17,985 nt of DNA from Nocardioides sp. (GTDB lineage Bacteria; Actinomycetota; Actinomycetes; Propionibacteriales; Nocardioidaceae). The notes under the pieces were generated by a model that was given only the letters and a program-made list of their open reading frames with translations, did no database searches and was not told the DNA's origin. Positions within the stretch are counted from its first letter, which is position 1, and every line of letters begins with the position of its first letter. The stretch spans positions 1 through 17,985 of the forward strand of contig JARICB010000019.1 of assembly GCA_029264225.1 (NCBI GenBank), read 5' to 3'. The translations under genes were made by a program, and so were the position numbers. Shown here piece after piece: positions 4,174-16,878 of this stretch.

Positions 4174-6708
4174 ATGAGAATTCTCATCTATCCGCATGAC
4201 CTGGGCATGGGTGGCAGTCAGATGAACGCCATCGACCTCGCTCGTGGCCTCGTCGACCGCGGCCATGAGGTGTGTATCTACGGCCGACCGGGGGTCCTGC
4301 TCGAGCGGATCGAACAGTTGGGCCTGGAGTTCATCGCCGCACCGGAGCCACGGCACCGACCCAGTGACGAAGTGATCACCGACCTGATCCGGCTGGTCAA
4401 GCAGCGACGTCTGGACGTGCTGCACGGTTACGAGTGGCCGCCAGGTCTGGAGTGCCACCTGGCGGCCCGCAGAAGCGGGGCGCTCGCCATCACCACGGTC
4501 ATGTCGATGGCCGTAGCCCCGTTCCTCCCTCGGTCGATGCCATTGGTCGTAGGGACCGAACAGATCGCCGCGCTCGAACGTCGGCAGGGCCGCCGGCTGG
4601 TGCATGTGCTGGAACCACCGGTCGACACGAGTGAGAACGCACCCGGGCTCGATCTCGATCTGACGGGTTTTCGCTCGCGCTGGCTGCCGGGCGAGCGGCC
4701 GACCATGGTGTGCGTGACGCGGTTTGCGCGTGAATTGAAGCTCGAGGGGCTGTTGACGGCGATGGACGCGGTCGGCCGGCTCGCGGCCCAGCAGGTGCCC
4801 CTGGGCGAGGCTCCGATTCGTCTGCTGGTGGTAGGCGATGGAGTCGCGCGACCCGAGGTGGAGGAGCAGGCGCGCCTGGTCAACGCTGCCGCCGGGCCCG
4901 GCACGGTTGTCCTGACCGGCACACTGGCCGACCCGCGACCCGCCTACGCGGTCGCGGACATCGCCCTCGGGATGGGTGGGTCAGCATTACGGGCGATGGC
5001 CTTCGCGAAGCCTCTGGTGGTGCAGGGGGAGCAGGGATTCTTCCGGCTCCTGGACCGGGAGAGCGTCCCGGATTTCCTCTGGACGGGCTGGTACGGCGTG
5101 GGTGGCCCCCACGACCCGGCGGCCCCCCTGGCGGCCAGCCTCCACGAACTTCTCCATGACCCGCAGCGACGCAGCGATCTGGGAGCCCTCAGTCGCGACT
5201 TGGTGGTGCGACGGTTCTCGCTCGAGGAGTCGACATCGCGGTTGGAGGGGATCTTGCGTCGGGGACTGACGGCGCGACGGTCGAACCGACTGGTCGCAAT
5301 GGGCGCGGATGTTGCTGCTGCAGCCCGCTTCACCCGCTACTACCTGGCCAAACGAGCGCGTCGTGCCCTGGGCACTGGCGCCACAGACGATTTCAACTCC
5401 CGTCCGGTCGCCTCGACGAGCGTGGCTCGTCCCAGGCAGTTGCCCGCGGCTGCCGACGGCACCACGTCGAGGCTCGATCCCCAGGCGTGGTTGTGGTTTC
5501 CGGGGGTCTCCTACGACGGCGTGACCGGCACTGACAAACAGTTGGTGCGAGCCCTGTCCACACTCCGACCCGTGGTGTGGGTGGACCCGCCGATGTCCTG
5601 GCGCGATCCACGCCGACCTGGTTGGCAAGAACGGGGGGCGACCCTCCTTCCCGACGGCATCATCCGGGTGCGGACCATCAGTCCACCCGGCGTGACGCGT
5701 CCGCTGCTGCGAGAGGTGGCGAGGTGGCTGACCCAACGCAATGCTCGGCGCGCTCTGCGCGCATCCGGTTATGGCCTGGAGGCCGTGCTGGTGAGCACCC
5801 CCGAGCAGCACCTCCCGTCGTGGACAGGATCGGCCACCCGACTCTATTTCGAGACGGATGACTTCGTGGCAGGGGCGTCCTTGCTTGGTCATTCTGTGCG
5901 GCACATGGTGCGGAATCGGGCTCGAAACCTGGCCCACAGTCATGGCGTCCTGGGGGTGACCGAAGAGATCCTGACCTCCATGCGGGCCGGGAGCAAGGGA
6001 CATGTCCTTCCCAACGGGTGTGACGCCGCATCGTTCGACCCGGACTGTTCAGAATCGTCACCGACTTCGATCGAGGTGTCCCTTCCGCAGCCCGTCGTCG
6101 GGGTGGTCGGCCAGCTCAACGAACGGCTGGACCTGTCTCTGCTGGAGGCGGTCGCCGATGCGGGCATCAGCCTGCTGCTCGTGGGGCCCCGGTACGAGCA
6201 GGATGGCCTTGTTCGAGCCCGGATCGATCAACTGATTGCCCGGACGAACGTGCAGTGGATCGACCGGCGTCCCTACGCCGAGATCCCGGCGCTGATGGGT
6301 CAGCTCACGGTTGGCCTGACGCCCTATACGCGTAGCGACTTCAACCTGGGCAGTTTTCCACTCAAGACCCTCGACTACCTGGCAGCCGGGCTGCCGGTCG
6401 TTTCCACGGACCTGCCCAGCGCGCGGACCCTCGATGCTCCGGATCTGTTGCTGGCCGTCGGGGCTGAGGAGTTCGTCGCCGCCACTCGTAACCATCTGGA
6501 GGGCGACAGGCTCAACGAGGACGCTGCCGGCGAACGACGACGGTTTGCGGCACGCCACTCATGGGCGGCCCGCGCGCAGGCCTTGGTGGAGATCGCAGCT
6601 CAGGTGCGCGGCGATAGCCCTTGTTCACCCCTACACTCGTTCCGGACGGGATCGGCGGCCCCTCCTGCGCAGATCCGGGATTCACCGCTACGGATGGACG
6701 GGGGATAG
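4174..6708 (+). CDS. Two-domain glycosyltransferase fusion (GT4 + TuaH-like GT)
   Basis: This 844-residue protein joins two GT-B glycosyltransferases, so it may add two successive sugars. Module 1, about residues 1-365, begins RILIYPHDLGMGGSQMNAIDLA with an N-terminal glycine loop and has LLVVGDGVARPEVE at about 217-230. Its donor-site region reads GMGGSALRAMAFAKPLVV (267-284), where the usual E-x7-E glutamates are replaced. A variable linker (about 366-435) contains a basic stretch near 385-400 that may touch the membrane. Module 2, about 436-812, has YFETDDFVAG at 558-567, VLPNGCDAASFDP at 611-623, VVGVVGQLNERLD and FPLKTLDYLAAGLPVV at 728-743, resembling TuaH-like glycosyltransferases. The start at 4174 follows a good GGAGG site. 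The stop lies 4 bases before the next gene's ATG, so the three rightward genes likely form an operon. One rare TTA codon occurs at 4987-4989. Family assignment is firm; sugars are unknown. Confidence 0.9.
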   Translation: MRILIYPHDLGMGGSQMNAIDLARGLVDRGHEVCIYGRPGVLLERIEQLGLEFIAAPEPRHRPSDEVITDLIRLVKQRRLDVLHGYEWPPGLECHLAARRSGALAITTVMSMAVAPFLPRSMPLVVGTEQIAALERRQGRRLVHVLEPPVDTSENAPGLDLDLTGFRSRWLPGERPTMVCVTRFARELKLEGLLTAMDAVGRLAAQQVPLGEAPIRLLVVGDGVARPEVEEQARLVNAAAGPGTVVLTGTLADPRPAYAVADIALGMGGSALRAMAFAKPLVVQGEQGFFRLLDRESVPDFLWTGWYGVGGPHDPAAPLAASLHELLHDPQRRSDLGALSRDLVVRRFSLEESTSRLEGILRRGLTARRSNRLVAMGADVAAAARFTRYYLAKRARRALGTGATDDFNSRPVASTSVARPRQLPAAADGTTSRLDPQAWLWFPGVSYDGVTGTDKQLVRALSTLRPVVWVDPPMSWRDPRRPGWQERGATLLPDGIIRVRTISPPGVTRPLLREVARWLTQRNARRALRASGYGLEAVLVSTPEQHLPSWTGSATRLYFETDDFVAGASLLGHSVRHMVRNRARNLAHSHGVLGVTEEILTSMRAGSKGHVLPNGCDAASFDPDCSESSPTSIEVSLPQPVVGVVGQLNERLDLSLLEAVADAGISLLLVGPRYEQDGLVRARIDQLIARTNVQWIDRRPYAEIPALMGQLTVGLTPYTRSDFNLGSFPLKTLDYLAAGLPVVSTDLPSARTLDAPDLLLAVGAEEFVAATRNHLEGDRLNEDAAGERRRFAARHSWAARAQALVEIAAQVRGDSPCSPLHSFRTGSAAPPAQIRDSPLRMDGG

Positions 6709-9546: not shown

Positions 9547-9560
9547 GAGATGAGTCCCAT

Positions 9561-9610
9561 TGCTGGTCTAGACCTGACCGGAGCCCGGGGGGTGCTGGTC
9601 GAACTGACCG
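9561..9610 (+). repeat. Imperfect direct repeat upstream of first beta-helix gene
   Basis: TGCTGGTC-N5-CTGACCG at 9561-9580 is repeated as TGCTGGTC-N3-CTGACCG at 9593-9610, with start points 32 bases apart, about three helical turns. Each copy is itself a partial dyad (GGTC...GACC), and the first contains the perfect 10-bp palindrome GGTCTAGACC at 9565-9574. The pair lies between the terminator and the gene start I prefer (9643), where a regulator could bind. If translation instead starts at 9550, this DNA would be coding. Confidence 0.4.
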
Positions 9611-9642
9611 ACGTCCCCATTCCCGACTCGGAAGCCCCCCTG

Positions 9643-10698
9643 ATGAACACCCCACGAAACTTTGACAGTGTCTCGACGCTCCGCCTTCGAGCATCCCGTC
9701 CGGTGCTCATGGTTGCCATGGCGACGCTCATCTTCGCCGCGACAGGCGTTGCCGCAGGGATGCCGGCTACCGCCGCCTCCCTCCAGAAGGCGCCATCGCA
9801 TCGCAGCACCTGCGCCACCGTGCCGAGCAAGTGCGGTTACCCGGATGCCACCAACACCGGGCCGTCGCCCGCGCGACTTACTCAGGTGCCAGCTGAGCGC
9901 ACGTCCGGATCGGGCTGGGTATGGAACGAGACGTATGACACCGTCTTCGTGAGCGGTAGAGGTGCAGTGCTGAAGGGGCTGGACATCGCCGGTGGCGTGG
10001 TCATCGATGCACCCGGTGTGACGCTGCGAGACTCCCGCATCTCCTCCTGCGGCGGAGACGACGATTCCGATGTGGTCGCGGTCCGCTACCGCCCTGCCGA
10101 GAACTATCGCGGCGCCCGGGCGAGCATTGTCGACAATCAGATTCTCGGAAGCCCTGCTGGGTGCACCCACAGGGCTCGTTCAGGGGTGCGGGACGTCTTC
10201 GGTGCTGCTCCCGACGTGTTGGTTGCGGGCAATGACATCTCGGGGACCGGGAACGGCATCACGATTGAGCACGAGGGTGTGGTTCGGGACAACTGGATTC
10301 ACGACCTTGGCCATCTGCCGGGAGACCACCACTCGGGTATCTCCACTCACGGCGGCGCGCGGGCGGTACGTATTCGCCACAACACCGTGTTGCTCCACGA
10401 CCAGGAATTCGCAGGCGGCGGAGGGGTGTCCGGTGCTGTCACGGTCTACAGCGACTTCGGACATGCCCAGAACGTCATGATTCGCAACAACTTGATCTCG
10501 GGTGGGTCCTACGTCGTCTATGGCGGCAACAGCGGCGACTCCTACTCCTCGCCGGCAACCCGGATCCGCATCATCAAGAACCGGTTCGTGTGCGGCGACT
10601 GGCTCTATGGCCCACTGGCGGCCTTCAGCCTGAAGGGTGTCGGCAACAAGTGGTCCGGCAACTACTGCGACGGTTCCGGCCGACGGGTCCGCCGGTGA
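9643..10698 (+). CDS. Secreted right-handed parallel beta-helix protein (first copy)
   Basis: This protein of about 351 residues has an export signal: a basic start with TLRLRASRP, then VLMVAMATLIFAATGVAAG and an AxA-like cleavage region near residue 43-46. The mature part begins with a Cys-containing segment and CGYPDATNTG at about 64-73, a motif I associate with secreted actinobacterial beta-helix proteins. It continues with short repeated turns such as VVIDAPGVTLRDSRI, NGITIEHEGVVRDNWI and VMIRNNLISGG that are typical of PbH1 repeats. A conserved block GDHHSGISTHGG may be part of an active or metal site. Beta-helix proteins of this kind are often polysaccharide lyases, hydrolases or C5-epimerases, so it may act on the locus's polymer outside the cell; activity is not provable. 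I prefer the ATG at 9643 because it opens directly into the signal peptide; an in-frame ATG at 9550 would add 31 residues before it. No strong ribosome binding site supports either. Confidence 0.82.
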   Translation: MNTPRNFDSVSTLRLRASRPVLMVAMATLIFAATGVAAGMPATAASLQKAPSHRSTCATVPSKCGYPDATNTGPSPARLTQVPAERTSGSGWVWNETYDTVFVSGRGAVLKGLDIAGGVVIDAPGVTLRDSRISSCGGDDDSDVVAVRYRPAENYRGARASIVDNQILGSPAGCTHRARSGVRDVFGAAPDVLVAGNDISGTGNGITIEHEGVVRDNWIHDLGHLPGDHHSGISTHGGARAVRIRHNTVLLHDQEFAGGGGVSGAVTVYSDFGHAQNVMIRNNLISGGSYVVYGGNSGDSYSSPATRIRIIKNRFVCGDWLYGPLAAFSLKGVGNKWSGNYCDGSGRRVRR

Positions 10699-10711
10699 AT
10701 ACGGTCGGCCC

Positions 10712-10717
10712 AAGGAG
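10712..10717 (+). promoter_or_regulatory. Ribosome binding site of second beta-helix gene
   Basis: AAGGAG lies 4 bases before the ATG at 10722 and 7 bases before a second in-frame ATG at 10725. The spacing slightly favours 10725, so the true start may be one codon later than annotated. It rules out the longer upstream open frame that overlaps the preceding gene. Confidence 0.6.
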
Positions 10718-10721
10718 AACG

Positions 10722-12356
10722 ATGATGACCCTTCGTCATAACCGAAGGCTGGCGCTGGCCTTACGCGTGCGCATGACGGCCCTCGCTGTGCTGTGCATGG
10801 CTGTCGTGGCAGCCGGGGCACTCGTACTCGACCCCGATCATGGTGGCTCGCTCGCGCCCCGGGCCGCAGCCCTGACAGCGGCTCCGGCCTACCGGACCAT
10901 CTTCGGTGATCAGGAGCCCCAGGGCCGGATGCGCAGCCGCCCTGTCTCGAAGCCGCTGGTGGTGGGCACCCGGTTCGTGGTCGGGGCGGCGGGCACCGTG
11001 CATGGTGCCCGATTCTGGAAGGTGCCCGGTGGTGCTGGGCGCCACGTCGTCGGACTGTGGGGGCCACGCGGAATCCGGTTAGCCACCGCCCGAGTCGTCG
11101 GCGAATCGCGGTCTGGTTGGCAGCAGGTGCTCTTCAAGAAGCCGGTCCGGGTTCGGACGGGTCGTACCTATGTAGTCGGCTATCGGTCGAAGCGCGGTGA
11201 CTATGCGGTGACTCCCAGGTATCGGGGGCGGACAGCGACAGGGGTGATATCGCTCGCCGGTCGGCGCAGTGGCGTGACCGGGCCACGCCGGACTCGAACC
11301 CATCACCAGTTCTGGGTCGATGCGCTCTTCGTCGAGGGCGGCAAGCGCAGTTCAACACCATCACCTGGCGCGACCCAGGACCCCACGCAGATGACGGCTC
11401 CGGTGCCGGCTCAGCCTTCCGTTCCCGCTGTGACTGGCACCGCTTCCCCCGCGCCCAACGCCGCCTGCAAGGAGGTGCCCTCGGTCTGCGGCTACCCCGA
11501 TGCGACCAACACAGGTCCGGCAGCGGGAACCGTCTTCGTGCAAGTGCCCTCCCAGGCGACGTCCGGGGCTGGCTGGGCGTGGAACGCCAGGTACAACGCC
11601 ATCTTCGTCAAGGGGAGTGGCGCCGTCCTCGAGGCTTTGGACATCGCCGGGTCAGTCGTGATCGACGCTCCCAACGTGACCCTGCGCAACTCCAGGGTCG
11701 CTGCCTGCGGGGGCAGCGACGACAGCGACGTGGTGGCGATCCGATACCGCCCCCAAGACGGTCTGCTGGCATCGGGAGCGCAGGTGCTGCACAACCAGAT
11801 CAACGGCAGTCCGACGGGTTGCGGCCGGCGCGCTCGATCCGGGGTCCGCGACGTCTACGGCGCCGCGCCCGGTGTGCTGGTCGACGGAAACAACGTCTAC
11901 GGCGCGGGTAACGGGATCACCATCGAACATGAGGGGGTGGTTGCCAACAACTGGGTGCACACACTGGGTCACGAGGCTGGCGATCATCACTCCGGTATCT
12001 CCACACATGGCGGGGCGATCCAGGTGTCCTTCCTGCACAACACGGTGCTGCTGCATGGCCAGAAGTTTGCCGGCGGAGGTGGAATCTCCGGGGCGCTGAC
12101 GGTTTACAGCGACTTCGCGCACGCGCAGAACGTCACCCTGCGCGACAACTTCGTGTCTGGTGGCTCGTATGTGATCTATGGCGGTAACAGTGGTGACGGA
12201 TACACGACCCCGGCGACCAACATCAAGATCTCCGGAAATAGGTTCGCCTGCGGCGACTGGTTGTACGGACCGGTCGCGGCCTTCGACCCCAGATCTGCGG
12301 GCAACGAGTGGACGGGTAATTACTGCGATGGGACCGGCGTAGCCGTCCGTCCCTGA
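10722..12356 (+). CDS. Secreted beta-helix protein with N-terminal DUF4082-type domain (second copy)
   Basis: This 544-residue protein has a signal sequence (basic start MMTLRHNRR, hydrophobic core at about 19-36). A DUF4082-type module follows at about residues 58-205, recognisable by RTIFGDQEPQG, LVVGTRFVVGAAGTVHGARFWK, GLWGPRG, the GWQQVLFKKPVRV stretch and GRTYVVGYRSKRGDYAV. A Pro/Ser/Thr linker runs from about 207 to 247. The right-handed beta-helix domain begins at CGYPDATNTG (256-265) and matches the preceding protein along its full length, roughly two thirds identical by eye, including GDHHSGISTHGG. DUF4082 is thought to be a beta-sandwich found next to carbohydrate-active modules, so here it may anchor the enzyme to the polymer or wall (inference). 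The gene follows its paralogue by 23 bases with its own ribosome binding site, so the two are likely co-transcribed. TTA codons occur at 10761-10763 and 11079-11081. Confidence 0.88.
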   Translation: MMTLRHNRRLALALRVRMTALAVLCMAVVAAGALVLDPDHGGSLAPRAAALTAAPAYRTIFGDQEPQGRMRSRPVSKPLVVGTRFVVGAAGTVHGARFWKVPGGAGRHVVGLWGPRGIRLATARVVGESRSGWQQVLFKKPVRVRTGRTYVVGYRSKRGDYAVTPRYRGRTATGVISLAGRRSGVTGPRRTRTHHQFWVDALFVEGGKRSSTPSPGATQDPTQMTAPVPAQPSVPAVTGTASPAPNAACKEVPSVCGYPDATNTGPAAGTVFVQVPSQATSGAGWAWNARYNAIFVKGSGAVLEALDIAGSVVIDAPNVTLRNSRVAACGGSDDSDVVAIRYRPQDGLLASGAQVLHNQINGSPTGCGRRARSGVRDVYGAAPGVLVDGNNVYGAGNGITIEHEGVVANNWVHTLGHEAGDHHSGISTHGGAIQVSFLHNTVLLHGQKFAGGGGISGALTVYSDFAHAQNVTLRDNFVSGGSYVIYGGNSGDGYTTPATNIKISGNRFACGDWLYGPVAAFDPRSAGNEWTGNYCDGTGVAVRP

Positions 12357-12465
12357 CGCATCGCCAGCCAGATCCCCAATATGGGGCTCAGTGCTGGGCC
12401 GTATCGACACTAGCGTCGAACGTGGAGCATTCCGGTGAGCGGCCGGGCGCAGACGCGGGGAACGC
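12357..12465 (+). promoter_or_regulatory. Intergenic region before wecB with two small inverted repeats
   Basis: These 109 bases hold CCCCA-ATA-TGGGG at 12374-12386 and TCGAC-ACTAGC-GTCGA at 12404-12419. The second overlaps TAGCGT (12411-12416), which fits a TAnnnT-type actinobacterial -10 box, but no convincing -35 is present. The first repeat could be a weak terminator for the beta-helix genes. GGGG at 12457-12460 precedes the wecB ATG. All assignments here are tentative. Confidence 0.25.
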
Positions 12466-13617
12466 ATGTTGAAAGTGATGATCGTGTACGGCACTCGTCC
12501 CGAGGCCATCAAGATGGCTCCGGTAGTGGTGGCCCTCAACGGATCCGGGGAGATCACGCCAGTGGTCGCGGTCACTGGCCAACATCGACAGATGCTGGAT
12601 CAGGTGAACGGTCTCTTCGAGATCGTGCCCCAACACGACCTCGACGTCATCAAGCCACGCCAACAGTTGCATGAGGTCACCCAGAAGGTTCTCGGTGGCC
12701 TCACAGCCCTGCTCCGTGCCGATCGCCCCGACGCCGTCCTGGTTCAGGGCGACACGACCACCACGATGGTCGCCGCCATGTCGGCGTTCTACGAGCAAGT
12801 GCCGGTGATCCACCTGGAAGCTGGACTGCGGACCCAGGACCGATACAACCCGTTCCCTGAGGAAGGGAACCGGCGCGTCACCTCGCAACTCGCGTCGCTG
12901 CATCTGGCGCCCACGACGCTGGCACGCGACAACCTGCTGCGCGACGGGATCGAGGCCGCCGACATCGTGATCACGGGCAATACGGTGATCGACGCGCTAC
13001 TGGAAGTGGTCTAGCGGCGGTTGCCGCCCCAGAATCCGGCTCTGAAGGTGCTCGACGGCCGAGCCGCTGTGCTCGTGACGAGCCATCGCCGAGAGTCGTG
13101 GGGAGAACCGATGGCTCGCACTGCAAGGGCGGTGGCGAGGCTGGCCACAGAATTTCTGGACACTCATTTCGTGCTTCCTGCGCACCTCAACCCACGGGTG
13201 CGCGAGGTGTTGCTTCCCCCACTCGTCGGACTGCCCAACGTGACGGTCACTGAACCCTTGTCCTACAGCGACTTCGCTTGGGCGATGGGCGCGTGTTCGA
13301 TCATGCTGACCGATAGCGGCGGGGTTCAGGAAGAGGCTCCGAGCTTGGGGAAACCGGTGCTGGTGCTGCGTGAGACCACCGAGCGTCCCGAGGCCGTCGC
13401 GGCCGGCACCGTTCGCCTGGTCGGGACTGATCCGGACCTGATCGTGCGGGAGGTCAGCGAACTGCTCACCAACCCTGCGGCGTACGAGGCCATGGCCCGC
13501 ACCGTCAATCCGTACGGCGATGGGCATGCTGCCGCTCGCAGTGTGGCCGCGGTCGAGGAGTTCTTCGGCGTCGGCAGGCGCCTGCCTGACTTCGACGGGG
13601 CTCTCAAGGTCCAGTAG
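12466..13617 (+). pseudogene. wecB: UDP-N-acetylglucosamine 2-epimerase interrupted by an in-frame TAG
   Basis: The intact enzyme converts UDP-GlcNAc to UDP-ManNAc in the cytoplasm, feeding the dehydrogenase encoded next door. The first piece (12466-13014, 182 residues) has YGTRPEAIKMAPVV at 8-21, GDTTTTMVA, HLEAGLRTQD and PFPEEGNRR. The second piece (13021-13617 as an open segment) has LVTSHRRESWGEPM, LPAHLNPRVREV, LTDSGGVQEEAPSLGKPVLVLRETTERPEA and GTVRLVGT. Both are in the same frame; only the TAG at 13012-13014 (codon 183 of 384) separates them, at the junction between the two Rossmann-like domains. Without it the protein would be 383 residues, the normal size. All main motifs persist, so the lesion is recent, a sequencing error, or bypassed by readthrough or reinitiation (a TTG at 13021 has no good ribosome binding site). 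The two halves alone are unlikely to be active because the catalytic cleft lies between domains. Confidence 0.88.
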
Positions 13618-13635
13618 AGGGGAGCCGCATCAGCG

Positions 13636-13652
13636 TGCCGGATCGGTCCGCA
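13636..13652. terminator. Possible hairpin between converging wecB and wecC
   Basis: In the 43-bp gap between the two stop codons, TGC-(C)-GGA-TCGG-TCC-GCA can form a 6-bp stem with one bulged C and a TCGG loop. It has no T tract on either side. Its position between convergent genes is what suggests termination. Confidence 0.28.
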
Positions 13653-13660
13653 GCCGCAGG

Positions 13661-14917
13661 CTAGCGCCAGATCCCTCGGGTGTCGTAGACGATCTTGCCC
13701 TCGAGTCGAGAGCGGCTCAGCGCGCGGAAGTGATCGTGGTCGACCAGCACCACCACGATGTCGGCATCGTCGATGGCCTCCTTGACGGGCTGGAGGCGTA
13801 GGCCGGGACGGCCTTGTAGGGAGGTAGGCAAGCGGTCGATGAAGGGCTCGGCAATCCGGATGTCCAGCTCTGGCAGCGCGTCAGCGATGTCCTCGACGAT
13901 GTCGAGGGCGGGGCTCTCGCGCAGGTCGTCGACGTTGGCCTTGTAGGCCAAACCGAGGCAGGCGACGGTCGGCTTGCGGAACCGCTCGGTCTTGGCCACG
14001 ACCTGGGCTGCCACGTGATGAGGTTTGTGGTCATTGATCTCGCGGGCCGTGCGGATCAGCCGCGACAGCTCCGGGGAGGCGCCGACGATGAACCAGGGGT
14101 CCACCGCAATGCAGTGTCCACCGACGCCGGGTCCTGGCGTGAGGATGTTGACCCGGGGATGGTGGTTGGCCATCTTGATGACCTCCCACACGTCGAGCCT
14201 CAGGTCTTCGCTGATCAACGACAGTTCGTTGGCGAAGGCGATGTTGACGTCGCGGTAGGCGTTCTCCACGAGCTTGGCCATCTCCGCGCTCGCCGCGTCG
14301 GTCAGATGGATGGTGCCCTGGCTGAACACCCGGTAGATCGAGGCGGCCCGCTCCGCGCACCGCCGCGTCACCCCGCCGACAACCCGGTCATTGGTGATCA
14401 TCTCGATCATGATGCGCCCCGGCAGCACCCGCTCGGGACAGTGCGCGACGTAGTAGTCGGGAACCCCTTCGGAGGTGTGGGGCGCCACCAGGTCGGGGCG
14501 GAGCTCCGCCAGCCACCGGCTCACCCCTTCGGTCGTGCCTGGCGGGGAGGTCGACTCCAGGATGATCACCTCGCCGCCGTGCAGCCTCGGGGCGATCTGC
14601 TCGACAGCCGCGCGCACGTAGGTCAGGTCAGCAGTGTGATCGGAGTTGAAGGGGGTAGGCACCGCGATGATGAAGGCGTCAGCCTCGGGCACCTTCGTCG
14701 TTGCCTCGAGTCGTCCCATCGAGACGGCACCGCTGACCCCGATCGCGAGCTCCGGCTCGACGAAGGGGACCTCGCCTCGCGAGACCGCCTCGACGGTGTC
14801 CTCGTTGACGTCGACGCCGATGACCTCGACGCCGCGGGTCGCGAGCGCCACTGCTGTAGGCAGGCCGATATAGCCCAATCCCACGACGGCTACCCGTCCC
14901 TCGAAGACCTCATCCAT
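13661..14917 (-). CDS. wecC: UDP-N-acetyl-D-mannosamine dehydrogenase
   Basis: This 418-residue cytoplasmic enzyme would oxidise C6 of UDP-ManNAc twice with NAD+ to give UDP-ManNAcA. The N-terminal NAD-binding Rossmann domain has VAVVGLGYIGLPTAVALA at 9-26. The middle domain has ESTSPPGTTE at 121-130, CPERVLPG at 160-167 and the family helix EMAKLVENAYRDVNIAFANE at 212-231. GPGVGGHCIAVDP at 262-274 contains the catalytic cysteine, C269. The C-terminal UDP-binding domain has GLAYKANVDDLRESPAL. The start at 14917 follows AGGAGAG with 7-base spacing and overlaps the end of wecG by 8 bases (ATGGATGA), so translation is probably coupled. A UDP-GlcNAc dehydrogenase of the WbpA type is a close alternative; the adjacent wecB and wecG genes favour WecC. 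Confidence 0.92.
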   Translation of the reverse strand: MDEVFEGRVAVVGLGYIGLPTAVALATRGVEVIGVDVNEDTVEAVSRGEVPFVEPELAIGVSGAVSMGRLEATTKVPEADAFIIAVPTPFNSDHTADLTYVRAAVEQIAPRLHGGEVIILESTSPPGTTEGVSRWLAELRPDLVAPHTSEGVPDYYVAHCPERVLPGRIMIEMITNDRVVGGVTRRCAERAASIYRVFSQGTIHLTDAASAEMAKLVENAYRDVNIAFANELSLISEDLRLDVWEVIKMANHHPRVNILTPGPGVGGHCIAVDPWFIVGASPELSRLIRTAREINDHKPHHVAAQVVAKTERFRKPTVACLGLAYKANVDDLRESPALDIVEDIADALPELDIRIAEPFIDRLPTSLQGRPGLRLQPVKEAIDDADIVVVLVDHDHFRALSRSRLEGKIVYDTRGIWR

Positions 14918-15713
14918 GGTCGGACTCTCCTGATCTGTCGTGACTCGCGAGGTAGGGCGGGCTCGGGTGCCTTCGCTCACCCGCGACCAGCCGGAGGAAG
15001 GCCGTGTTTGTGACCAGGTATCGCCCTGCCAGCCGTCGCGGTTCCTGGAGCAGCCGGTAGGCCCACTCCATTCCGCACGACTGCCACGCCCGTGGCGCCC
15101 GTTTGGTCACTCCCGCCAAGACGTCGAACGAACCGCCGACACCGTGCAGCACTGGTACGCCGAGATGATGGCCGTAGGTGCCCAGGAAGATCTCCTTGGC
15201 CGGAGTGGTCATCCCGAGGAAGAGCATGTCGGCGCCGGAGGCCTTGATGGCGGCGGCCACTTCGGCCGAGTCGGAGTCGTCGAAGTATCCGTCCCGGCTG
15301 CCGGCGATCTCCAGGCGTGGCCACCGCTGCGCAACCAGCCGCTCGAGGCGAGCCAGGACGTCGGGTCGCGCGCCCAGGAAGAACACCCGGTGGCCGTCGT
15401 GGTCGGCCAGGTCGAGCAGCGACTCGAACAGATCGATACCCGCGACGCGTTCGGGGAGCGGGTGGCCCAGGAGCCGGCTCGCCCAGACCACGGACTGGCC
15501 ATCGGCGAGCAGGACGTCGCAGGTGAGCAGGGAATCGCGAAGGAACGCATCGCTGCGCAACTTGACCACCTTGGCGGCGTTGACCACGCCGACCAGCAAC
15601 TGTCGGCGTAGGCGCAGGGCGTCATCGGCCAGGTCCACGACCTGGTCGAGGGTCAACGGGTCGAGGCTCATGCCGAAGAGCACGTCGCTCGGGCGGTTCA
15701 GCACCTCACTCAT
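14910..15713 (-). CDS. wecG: WecG/TagA/CpsF family (GT26) glycosyltransferase
   Basis: This 267-residue protein would transfer ManNAcA (or ManNAc) from UDP onto undecaprenyl-PP-GlcNAc at the cytoplasmic membrane face. It shows the family pattern throughout: VNAAKVVKLRSD at 44-55, LADGQSVVWASRLLG with the conserved aspartate at 71, RVAGIDLFESLL at 89-100, RVFFLGARP at 109-117, GYFDD at 142-146, LFLGMTTPAKEIF at 165-177, GVGGSFDVLAGVTKRAP at 191-207 and the basic C-terminal EWAYRLLQEPRRLAGRY at 216-232, which in this family helps membrane attachment. The start at 15713 gives the normal length and overlaps the preceding gene by 8 bases (ATGAGTGA); the gene also overlaps wecC by 8 bases. With wecC beside it, the ManNAcA-transferring WecG role is likelier than TagA. 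Confidence 0.9.
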   Translation of the reverse strand: MSEVLNRPSDVLFGMSLDPLTLDQVVDLADDALRLRRQLLVGVVNAAKVVKLRSDAFLRDSLLTCDVLLADGQSVVWASRLLGHPLPERVAGIDLFESLLDLADHDGHRVFFLGARPDVLARLERLVAQRWPRLEIAGSRDGYFDDSDSAEVAAAIKASGADMLFLGMTTPAKEIFLGTYGHHLGVPVLHGVGGSFDVLAGVTKRAPRAWQSCGMEWAYRLLQEPRRLAGRYLVTNTAFLRLVAGERRHPSPPYLASHDRSGESDHG

Positions 15714-16878
15714 CGGCGTTGACCCGGCTGGCAGGGGTAACGGCGGCCGTCGGCTGCCATGCGTAGAGCAGCCAGCCGAGCTCGTAGGGGCGACATTCGT
15801 GATCGACGTTCGCGGCCGGGAACATCCGGTCGACACCGGGCACCTTGGCCCCGGCCCGAGCGGTGGTCGCCACGGCCTGCACAGCACGGGTCGCCTTGGG
15901 TGGCTCGCGTCGACCGACCTTGCGCCAGACCACGCCCCATCGCGGTGACACCAGTTCCTCAACGACTTCGGGGTGGGTCTCCAGCCACCTCACCCCGAGC
16001 TGTATCTCGGCCGTGTGGTCGGAGCCGCCCGCCTCACGCAGTTCCAGGAGTGCCATGGGCGCCATCGCGTGCTGGTGCACGCTGTAGACGGGGTAACCCT
16101 CGACGACCGAACCGTTGCGGACGTCGTAGTGCCACCACCACTGTCCGTGATCGCCCTGAAGCCGGCAGATCTGCTGTGCCGTTCGGCTTGCCGCGTCGAT
16201 CCACAGTGGCTGGCCCATCGTAAGGCCGGCCCGGGTGAGCGCCTGGATGGGATAGACCTGATCGGCGAAGCAACCGATGTGTGCGCGCCAGCGAGGCTGA
16301 TCGGCAGCGGGCAGGCGATGCGGGAAGATCCCGTGGTTCCCGCAATGAGCCATCAGCAGGTCGGCGCCGTGGTGCATCACCTCGGCCGTGTCGCCGAGTG
16401 GTGCGGCGGCGGCGGCGGCGCTCACCATCCACGAGACGTCCACTGTGGCCAGCGATGGTGTCGTCCGCAGCAGACGTGAGAGCCGTCGGAAGAGCGCGGC
16501 GTCGTAGACCCCGCAGATCTCGGCTCGGGCCCAGGCAGCGAGGGCGATCGCCCCCGGATCGGTAATCGCTCGGGCCCGACTCGAGATGAGTTCGGCGAGG
16601 TCGGCGGCCGTGTTGCCCGCGAGCACTTCACGCTGGGTCGCCTCGTCGAGGCGGTGCAGGCCGAGGGCGGCCATTGCGTCATACCGGGCGTTGTGGCCTT
16701 CACGTCGCACGTGCACACCATCGGAGCCGCGGAGCCCGCGCACCGTTTGCGCAAACTCACCTGCCGCCGCGTTGTAGGCGACCTTCAACCCCTGCGGTGC
16801 CAGGCGGAGGAGCGCTGTGACGGTAGTCGCAGTCTCCTCATCAACCGCCCAGGTCCGGGCCGTGCTTGTGACTGTCAT
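15706..16878 (-). CDS. Uncharacterised protein, predicted alpha/alpha-toroid fold
   Basis: I do not recognise the family of this 390-residue protein. It is largely helical, with Ala/Leu-rich amphipathic segments repeating about every 50 residues. It has aromatic- and histidine-rich motifs in a row: HCGNHGIFPHRLP at 178-190, IGCFADQVYPIQAL at 201-214, GDHGQWWWHYD at 242-252 and GYPVYSVHQHAMAPMALLEL at 261-280, ending with VDHECRPYELGWLLYAW near 359-375. GQWWW resembles the QW-type turns of terpene-cyclase-like (alpha/alpha)6 barrels, which also include many polysaccharide lyases and sugar epimerases. No signal peptide or transmembrane segment is visible, so it is probably cytoplasmic. The stop overlaps the wecG start by 8 bases, so the two are coupled and likely act in the same step. 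The ATG at 16878 follows GGAGTGGGGGG. The fold is inferred; the function is unknown. Confidence 0.75.
   Translation of the reverse strand: MTVTSTARTWAVDEETATTVTALLRLAPQGLKVAYNAAAGEFAQTVRGLRGSDGVHVRREGHNARYDAMAALGLHRLDEATQREVLAGNTAADLAELISSRARAITDPGAIALAAWARAEICGVYDAALFRRLSRLLRTTPSLATVDVSWMVSAAAAAAPLGDTAEVMHHGADLLMAHCGNHGIFPHRLPAADQPRWRAHIGCFADQVYPIQALTRAGLTMGQPLWIDAASRTAQQICRLQGDHGQWWWHYDVRNGSVVEGYPVYSVHQHAMAPMALLELREAGGSDHTAEIQLGVRWLETHPEVVEELVSPRWGVVWRKVGRREPPKATRAVQAVATTARAGAKVPGVDRMFPAANVDHECRPYELGWLLYAWQPTAAVTPASRVNADE

Follow-up and report, generated by a model that had tools for sequence, protein, structure and literature searches.

A single in-frame TAG interrupts an otherwise well-preserved wecB in a Nocardioides surface-polysaccharide locus

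The window, that is, the whole 17,985-nucleotide stretch analyzed here, is contig C259 of a Nocardioides draft assembly (2.9 Mb, 451 contigs, 83.9% complete). Judged by its predicted products, the neighborhood is a surface-polysaccharide locus. The forward strand carries a wecB frame (12466-13617), and on the reverse strand lie an intact wecC for UDP-N-acetyl-D-mannosamine dehydrogenase (13661-14980; NF008286 at 563 bits, cut-off 459), convergent with wecB, and an intact gene for a wecG/tagA/cpsF-family glycosyltransferase (14910-15962; PF03808 and TIGR00696), the true start of which probably falls inside this open reading frame (ORF). Other neighbors encode glycosyltransferases, an O-antigen-ligase-like protein, and beta-helix-type proteins, as well as a Wzz-like protein that scores under the Pfam cut-off. 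An 844-amino-acid forward-strand ORF (4174-6708) has two glycosyltransferase regions in tandem, with Pfam GT4-type matches near both ends, and is an apparent fusion. Two further forward-strand frames (9550-10698 and 10590-12356) encode proteins that look similar by eye, an apparent tandem duplication; the product of the first matches the Pfam beta helix and that of the second has a DUF4082 domain.

Since wecB closes its strand run and faces wecC, a lesion in it would not be expected to act in a polar way on either wecC or wecG. This convergent arrangement recurs in 1 of 11 close loci of the genus (L158), and in the other 10 wecB and wecC share one strand. The closest named loci, at 78%, are those of Nocardioides solisilvae and a Marmoricola; the same-genus locus L158 shares 78.2% identity with the window in wecB and 86.6% in wecC, figures identical to those for N. 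solisilvae, and by these relatives the genus would be Nocardioides. A search of the open-access literature returned no title on this locus, which does not prove that none exists.

The wecB frame contains one internal stop, a TAG at 13012-13014 (codon 183), and thus lacks the uninterrupted frame of about 380 codons typical of WecB. The N half (12466-13014, forward strand) has an ATG start and 182 codons before the TAG, and it matches the TIGR00236 wecB model at positions 1 to 180 with 244 bits, over the cut-off of 210.15. The C half (13015-13617, forward strand) continues in the same frame to a terminal TAG at 13615-13617 and matches the same model at positions 199 to 363 with 198 bits, which is under the cut-off when taken alone, as can be expected for half a protein. 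The Pfam Epimerase_2 (PF02350) match likewise runs on across the halves, from 3 to 160 and then from 176 to 346. Because both halves jointly span one complete family member, the split is beyond chance, and the interrupted frame is, by these family matches, an otherwise complete WecB-type (non-hydrolyzing) UDP-GlcNAc 2-epimerase. The ORFs and both models thereby bear out, in frame, place, and identity, the sequence-only reading that a single TAG splits a one-frame wecB. The epimerase motifs named in that reading are all present in the translation, and its description of the gene as otherwise well preserved holds: of 152 near-invariant positions, at which no fewer than 119 of 120 homologues agree, the protein retains 149.

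Compared with the WecB/MnaA family (TIGR00236, PF02350; solved structures include 1f6d and 7vza), the halves jointly span the model and retain the conserved residues, including the lysine of GTRPEAIK, but the frame that is uninterrupted in the family here has a TAG at codon 183. With X at the stop, the protein aligns with solved UDP-GlcNAc 2-epimerases over most of its length. A structure predicted for P0002, the closest intact relative (mean pLDDT, 91.3), matches 7vz6, 1f6d, 7vza, and others. In this model codon 183 would correspond to a residue at the end of the helix spanning 173 to 184, ahead of the stretch that connects to the next strand. From the known two-domain architecture we take this site to be the domain linker, at the end of a helix before the second domain, and the alignment column is variable. 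PMC8669472 reports that the K15A epimerase of Escherichia coli is inactive; by the shared motif, K16 here would correspond to that residue.

Apart from the P0243 fragment described below, none of the relatives examined carries a stop here. The sequence-only reading had held that a TAG common to many related genomes with conserved halves would argue against recent decay, and that test came out negative: a stop at the aligned position was found in none of the 120 best-listed homologues (of 7998 scored), and an internal stop in wecB in none of the 20 other genus genomes carrying the gene. The searches turned up no same-species sequence; the nearest protein shares 83% identity, and a 182-amino-acid N fragment at 100% identity is the window's own. 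Alignments of 57 loci, one of which (L088) stops short of position 183, held a single stop, near the C end of a cyanobacterial locus (L072) at query residue 372. Among order-level relatives, 10 rows were flagged with one TGA and one with a TAG, besides the window's own. Seven of these (L005-L007 and L009-L012) had no stop in the aligned stretch on re-alignment, and the flagged matches therefore probably ran past the gene end. In three of the other four (33 to 38% identity), the TAG row included, the stop lies at residue 356 of 359 to 362, which is the gene end; in the fourth (G045; 33%, partial from query residue 113) it falls at match residue 23 and not at codon 183. This last region (G045:C1:4741100-4742000, L184) holds a distant epimerase-like match with a TGA, perhaps a broken paralogue. 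The best non-self match to the C half, P0243 (81% identity, 200 amino acids, on a 76.9-kb contig), starts at the same linker and may be another interrupted or mis-started wecB.

Both halves look constrained. Alignments to relatives show no frameshift in wecB, and we found no lesion in it besides the TAG. By Nei-Gojobori counts, dN/dS to L158, the nearest genus locus, is approximately 0.13 for the N half and 0.11 for the C half, compared with 0.14 for wecC, although the ratios are rough given the large synonymous distances of wecB to its relatives (approximately 1.0 to 1.5). A long-standing break should raise dN relative to dS in both halves, and the break would thus be either recent or not real. 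The mean ratio of wecB to wecC protein divergence to 11 genus loci, with three more distant loci left out, is 1.32, within the range of 1.13 to 1.40 among those 11. The picture of constraint in these comparisons is not clean, however, given the high ratios to the two loci nearest by wecC (1.71 for L158 and 1.83 for L162, versus 0.89 to 1.78 for pairs of other loci). Synonymous distance to L158 is raised in about equal proportion (1.13 to 1.33 for wecB, 0.64 for wecC), which makes a more diverged wecB likelier than relaxed selection. At 196 columns that are at least 95% conserved, the window protein departs 5 times, against a homologue median of 1; 11 of the 120 homologues depart at 5 or more. 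GC at third codon positions (compared over 12466-14899) is 0.77 to 0.80 in this wecB versus 0.90 to 0.98 in 11 genus loci, and since it is low in the window's wecC as well (0.87 versus 0.91 to 0.99), the low value likely characterizes the genome or locus as a whole and does not reflect wecB decay alone.

We searched the genome for a second wecB, as the sequence-only reading had proposed, using each half and the Pfam family, and found no other epimerase of the wecB family in the 83.9%-complete assembly, from which approximately 16% of the genome is missing. Across 215 genomes of the genus, with the window genome counted in both tallies and with at most 9 wecB and 8 wecC first-look candidates scored per genome, a wecB-like match (E ≤ 1e-60) occurs in 21 and wecC (E ≤ 1e-80) in 15. 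wecB is an accessory gene in the genus, present in about one genome in ten. At these cut-offs all 15 wecC genomes also have wecB, and in the 14 other than the window genome the wecB match is free of internal stops. wecC therefore appears to need wecB, in agreement with the pathway, which leads from UDP-GlcNAc to UDP-ManNAc and on to UDP-ManNAcA. Pathway logic and this co-occurrence uphold the earlier proposal that the neighboring wecC and wecG rely on the wecB product.

The best reading of these observations, which we favor with moderate confidence, is a recent nonsense null allele of an accessory wecB. One nonsense substitution would recently have struck the only copy of wecB found, and translation would terminate at codon 183, where the first of the two domains ends, leaving no working epimerase. 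This strain would then lack the supply of UDP-ManNAc for WecC and the WecG-family transferase, and would in consequence lose whatever part of the surface polymer contains ManNAc or ManNAcA. We infer three things here: the reality of the base, the inactivity of the protein, and the loss of the polymer. Among accessory surface-polysaccharide genes, nonsense pseudogenes are a known kind, and the present case resembles them in having a single substitution-type lesion that is unseen in relatives, within a cassette that is otherwise intact. The finding is accordingly an ordinary one, most likely either a fresh mutation or an assembly error.

The main rival is a consensus or assembly error, with an incorrect base in the draft and an intact wecB in the strain itself; this is possible though on the unlikely side. 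The draft, in 451 contigs and 83.9% complete, does contain errors, as at one end of contig C281, where a low-GC alaS fragment is fused to the strain's rho. wecB itself shows little sign of relaxation and is present in 15 of 15 genus genomes with wecC, and the lack of decay in wecC and wecG is likewise compatible with a spurious lesion. Against an error, wecB has no frameshift, the window bears no sign of a chimeric join (GC is 63 to 69% in 1-kb bins), and internal stops occur in none of 53 listed family matches from the same genome (11,027 codons). These comprise 24 of 24 AMP-binding matches and, among the matches listed of a total of 70, 29 of 29 ABC matches, so that stops are not scattered through the assembly.

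At the start of C281 (G000:C281:1-400, L179), the first 300 to 370 bases or so have a GC content of approximately 46% and encode an alanine-tRNA ligase fragment beside the end of rho; its composition and content point most readily to a chimeric end of the contig. The low-GC stretch had no match in an E. coli collection. A coding-potential screen of the window and 159,041 sampled bases for further interrupted genes failed its positive control: owing to the weak score of the C half, it did not pick up the TAG in wecB. Its three candidates (L099 at 6702, L103 at 6655, and L110 at 2538) are all TGA codons with an ATG 2 to 10 codons later and look like neighboring genes.

The accounts in which the TAG is real and serves a function, namely, readthrough, a two-piece enzyme, or a phase switch, are unlikely even when taken together. 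Readthrough, in which TAG would be decoded as an amino acid often enough to yield full-length WecB, is improbable. The apparent constraint on both halves speaks for it, and in PMC7918605 many in-frame stops in bacterial genes are argued to be conserved and maybe read through. The genes treated there resemble this one in having low dN/dS on either side of the stop; the focus of that study is on stops common to orthologues of at least two species, to limit artifacts, whereas the stop here is shared with no relative examined (0 of 120 homologues and 0 of 20 genus genomes). None of the 42 tRNA genes found by Rfam and ARAGORN in the assembly, which lacks approximately 16% of the genome, has the anticodon CTA that would read amber. 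The RNA 3' of the stop folds no better than shuffled sequences (z = -0.53).

TAG also acts as a normal stop in this genome. The stops of 79 long coding-like ORFs from the sample and window comprise 17 TAG, 61 TGA, and 1 TAA, and the mean codon score falls from +0.31 before to -0.14 after TAG (16 ORFs), much as it falls from +0.27 to -0.18 around TGA (60 ORFs). A TAG reassigned to sense would be out of use as a terminator, and here it is in use. The possibility raised earlier that readthrough maintains the supply is thus left without support from the tRNA set, the downstream fold, or TAG usage. A pattern search for amber suppressor tRNAs gave 3 matches, compared with 2 for the reversed control. 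Of the 3, one is within a tRNA-Glu but off its anticodon, and ARAGORN finds no tRNA at the other two. Release factor 1 (prfA) was not found in the draft assembly, where the sole match was RF2. In actinobacterial gene order prfA follows rho, and since rho borders the chimeric end of C281 on the expected side, this absence is probably a gap and no evidence for recoding. A real but tolerated TAG, with leaky termination or an epimerase split at the linker keeping up a reduced ManNAc supply and so tuning the surface polymer, is quite improbable.

We regard as highly doubtful an enzyme made in two pieces, in which translation restarts just past the TAG and the separately made N and C domains then assemble. 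The break does fall at the end of the first domain, with a TTG two codons past the TAG, and the C-half relative P0243 starts at the same place. By eye, however, no convincing ribosome-binding site precedes the TTG, and the split occurs in none of the full-length relatives examined. The 119 N-half fragments listed, many of which come from short contigs, end anywhere from the 150s to the 310s, with 8 of the 119 ends at 180 to 189 and 26 at 190 to 209, a mild excess just past the linker with no peak at the site.

Three N/C fragment pairs (P0125/P0337, P0162/P0332, and P0174/P0261) were matched solely by the equal sizes of their contigs (13,386, 4,074, and 10,065, respectively), and each pair is probably one broken wecB, with the break in a different place.

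Least credible is the phase-like OFF switch of the surface polymer proposed from the sequence, with ON/OFF variation through reversible mutation at the site: surface-polysaccharide genes are frequent targets of such switches, but the site has no tandem repeat, no inverted repeat of at least 12 bases lies within 12400-13700 (which holds one weak 10-base array, at 13416-13443), and substitution of a single base is not the kind of change that reverses at high frequency.

Returning to the recent nonsense null allele, loss of such a gene can be selected, since the WecB-dependent glycan of E. coli is a phage receptor (PMC8669472); nothing in our data shows such selection in this strain. Should the TAG prove to be a base error, its sole significance would be as a caution on draft genomes. 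If it is real, the strain would have lost its ManNAc-sugar supply naturally while the remaining pathway is still intact, and the locus would offer a snapshot of how the loss of accessory surface polymers starts.
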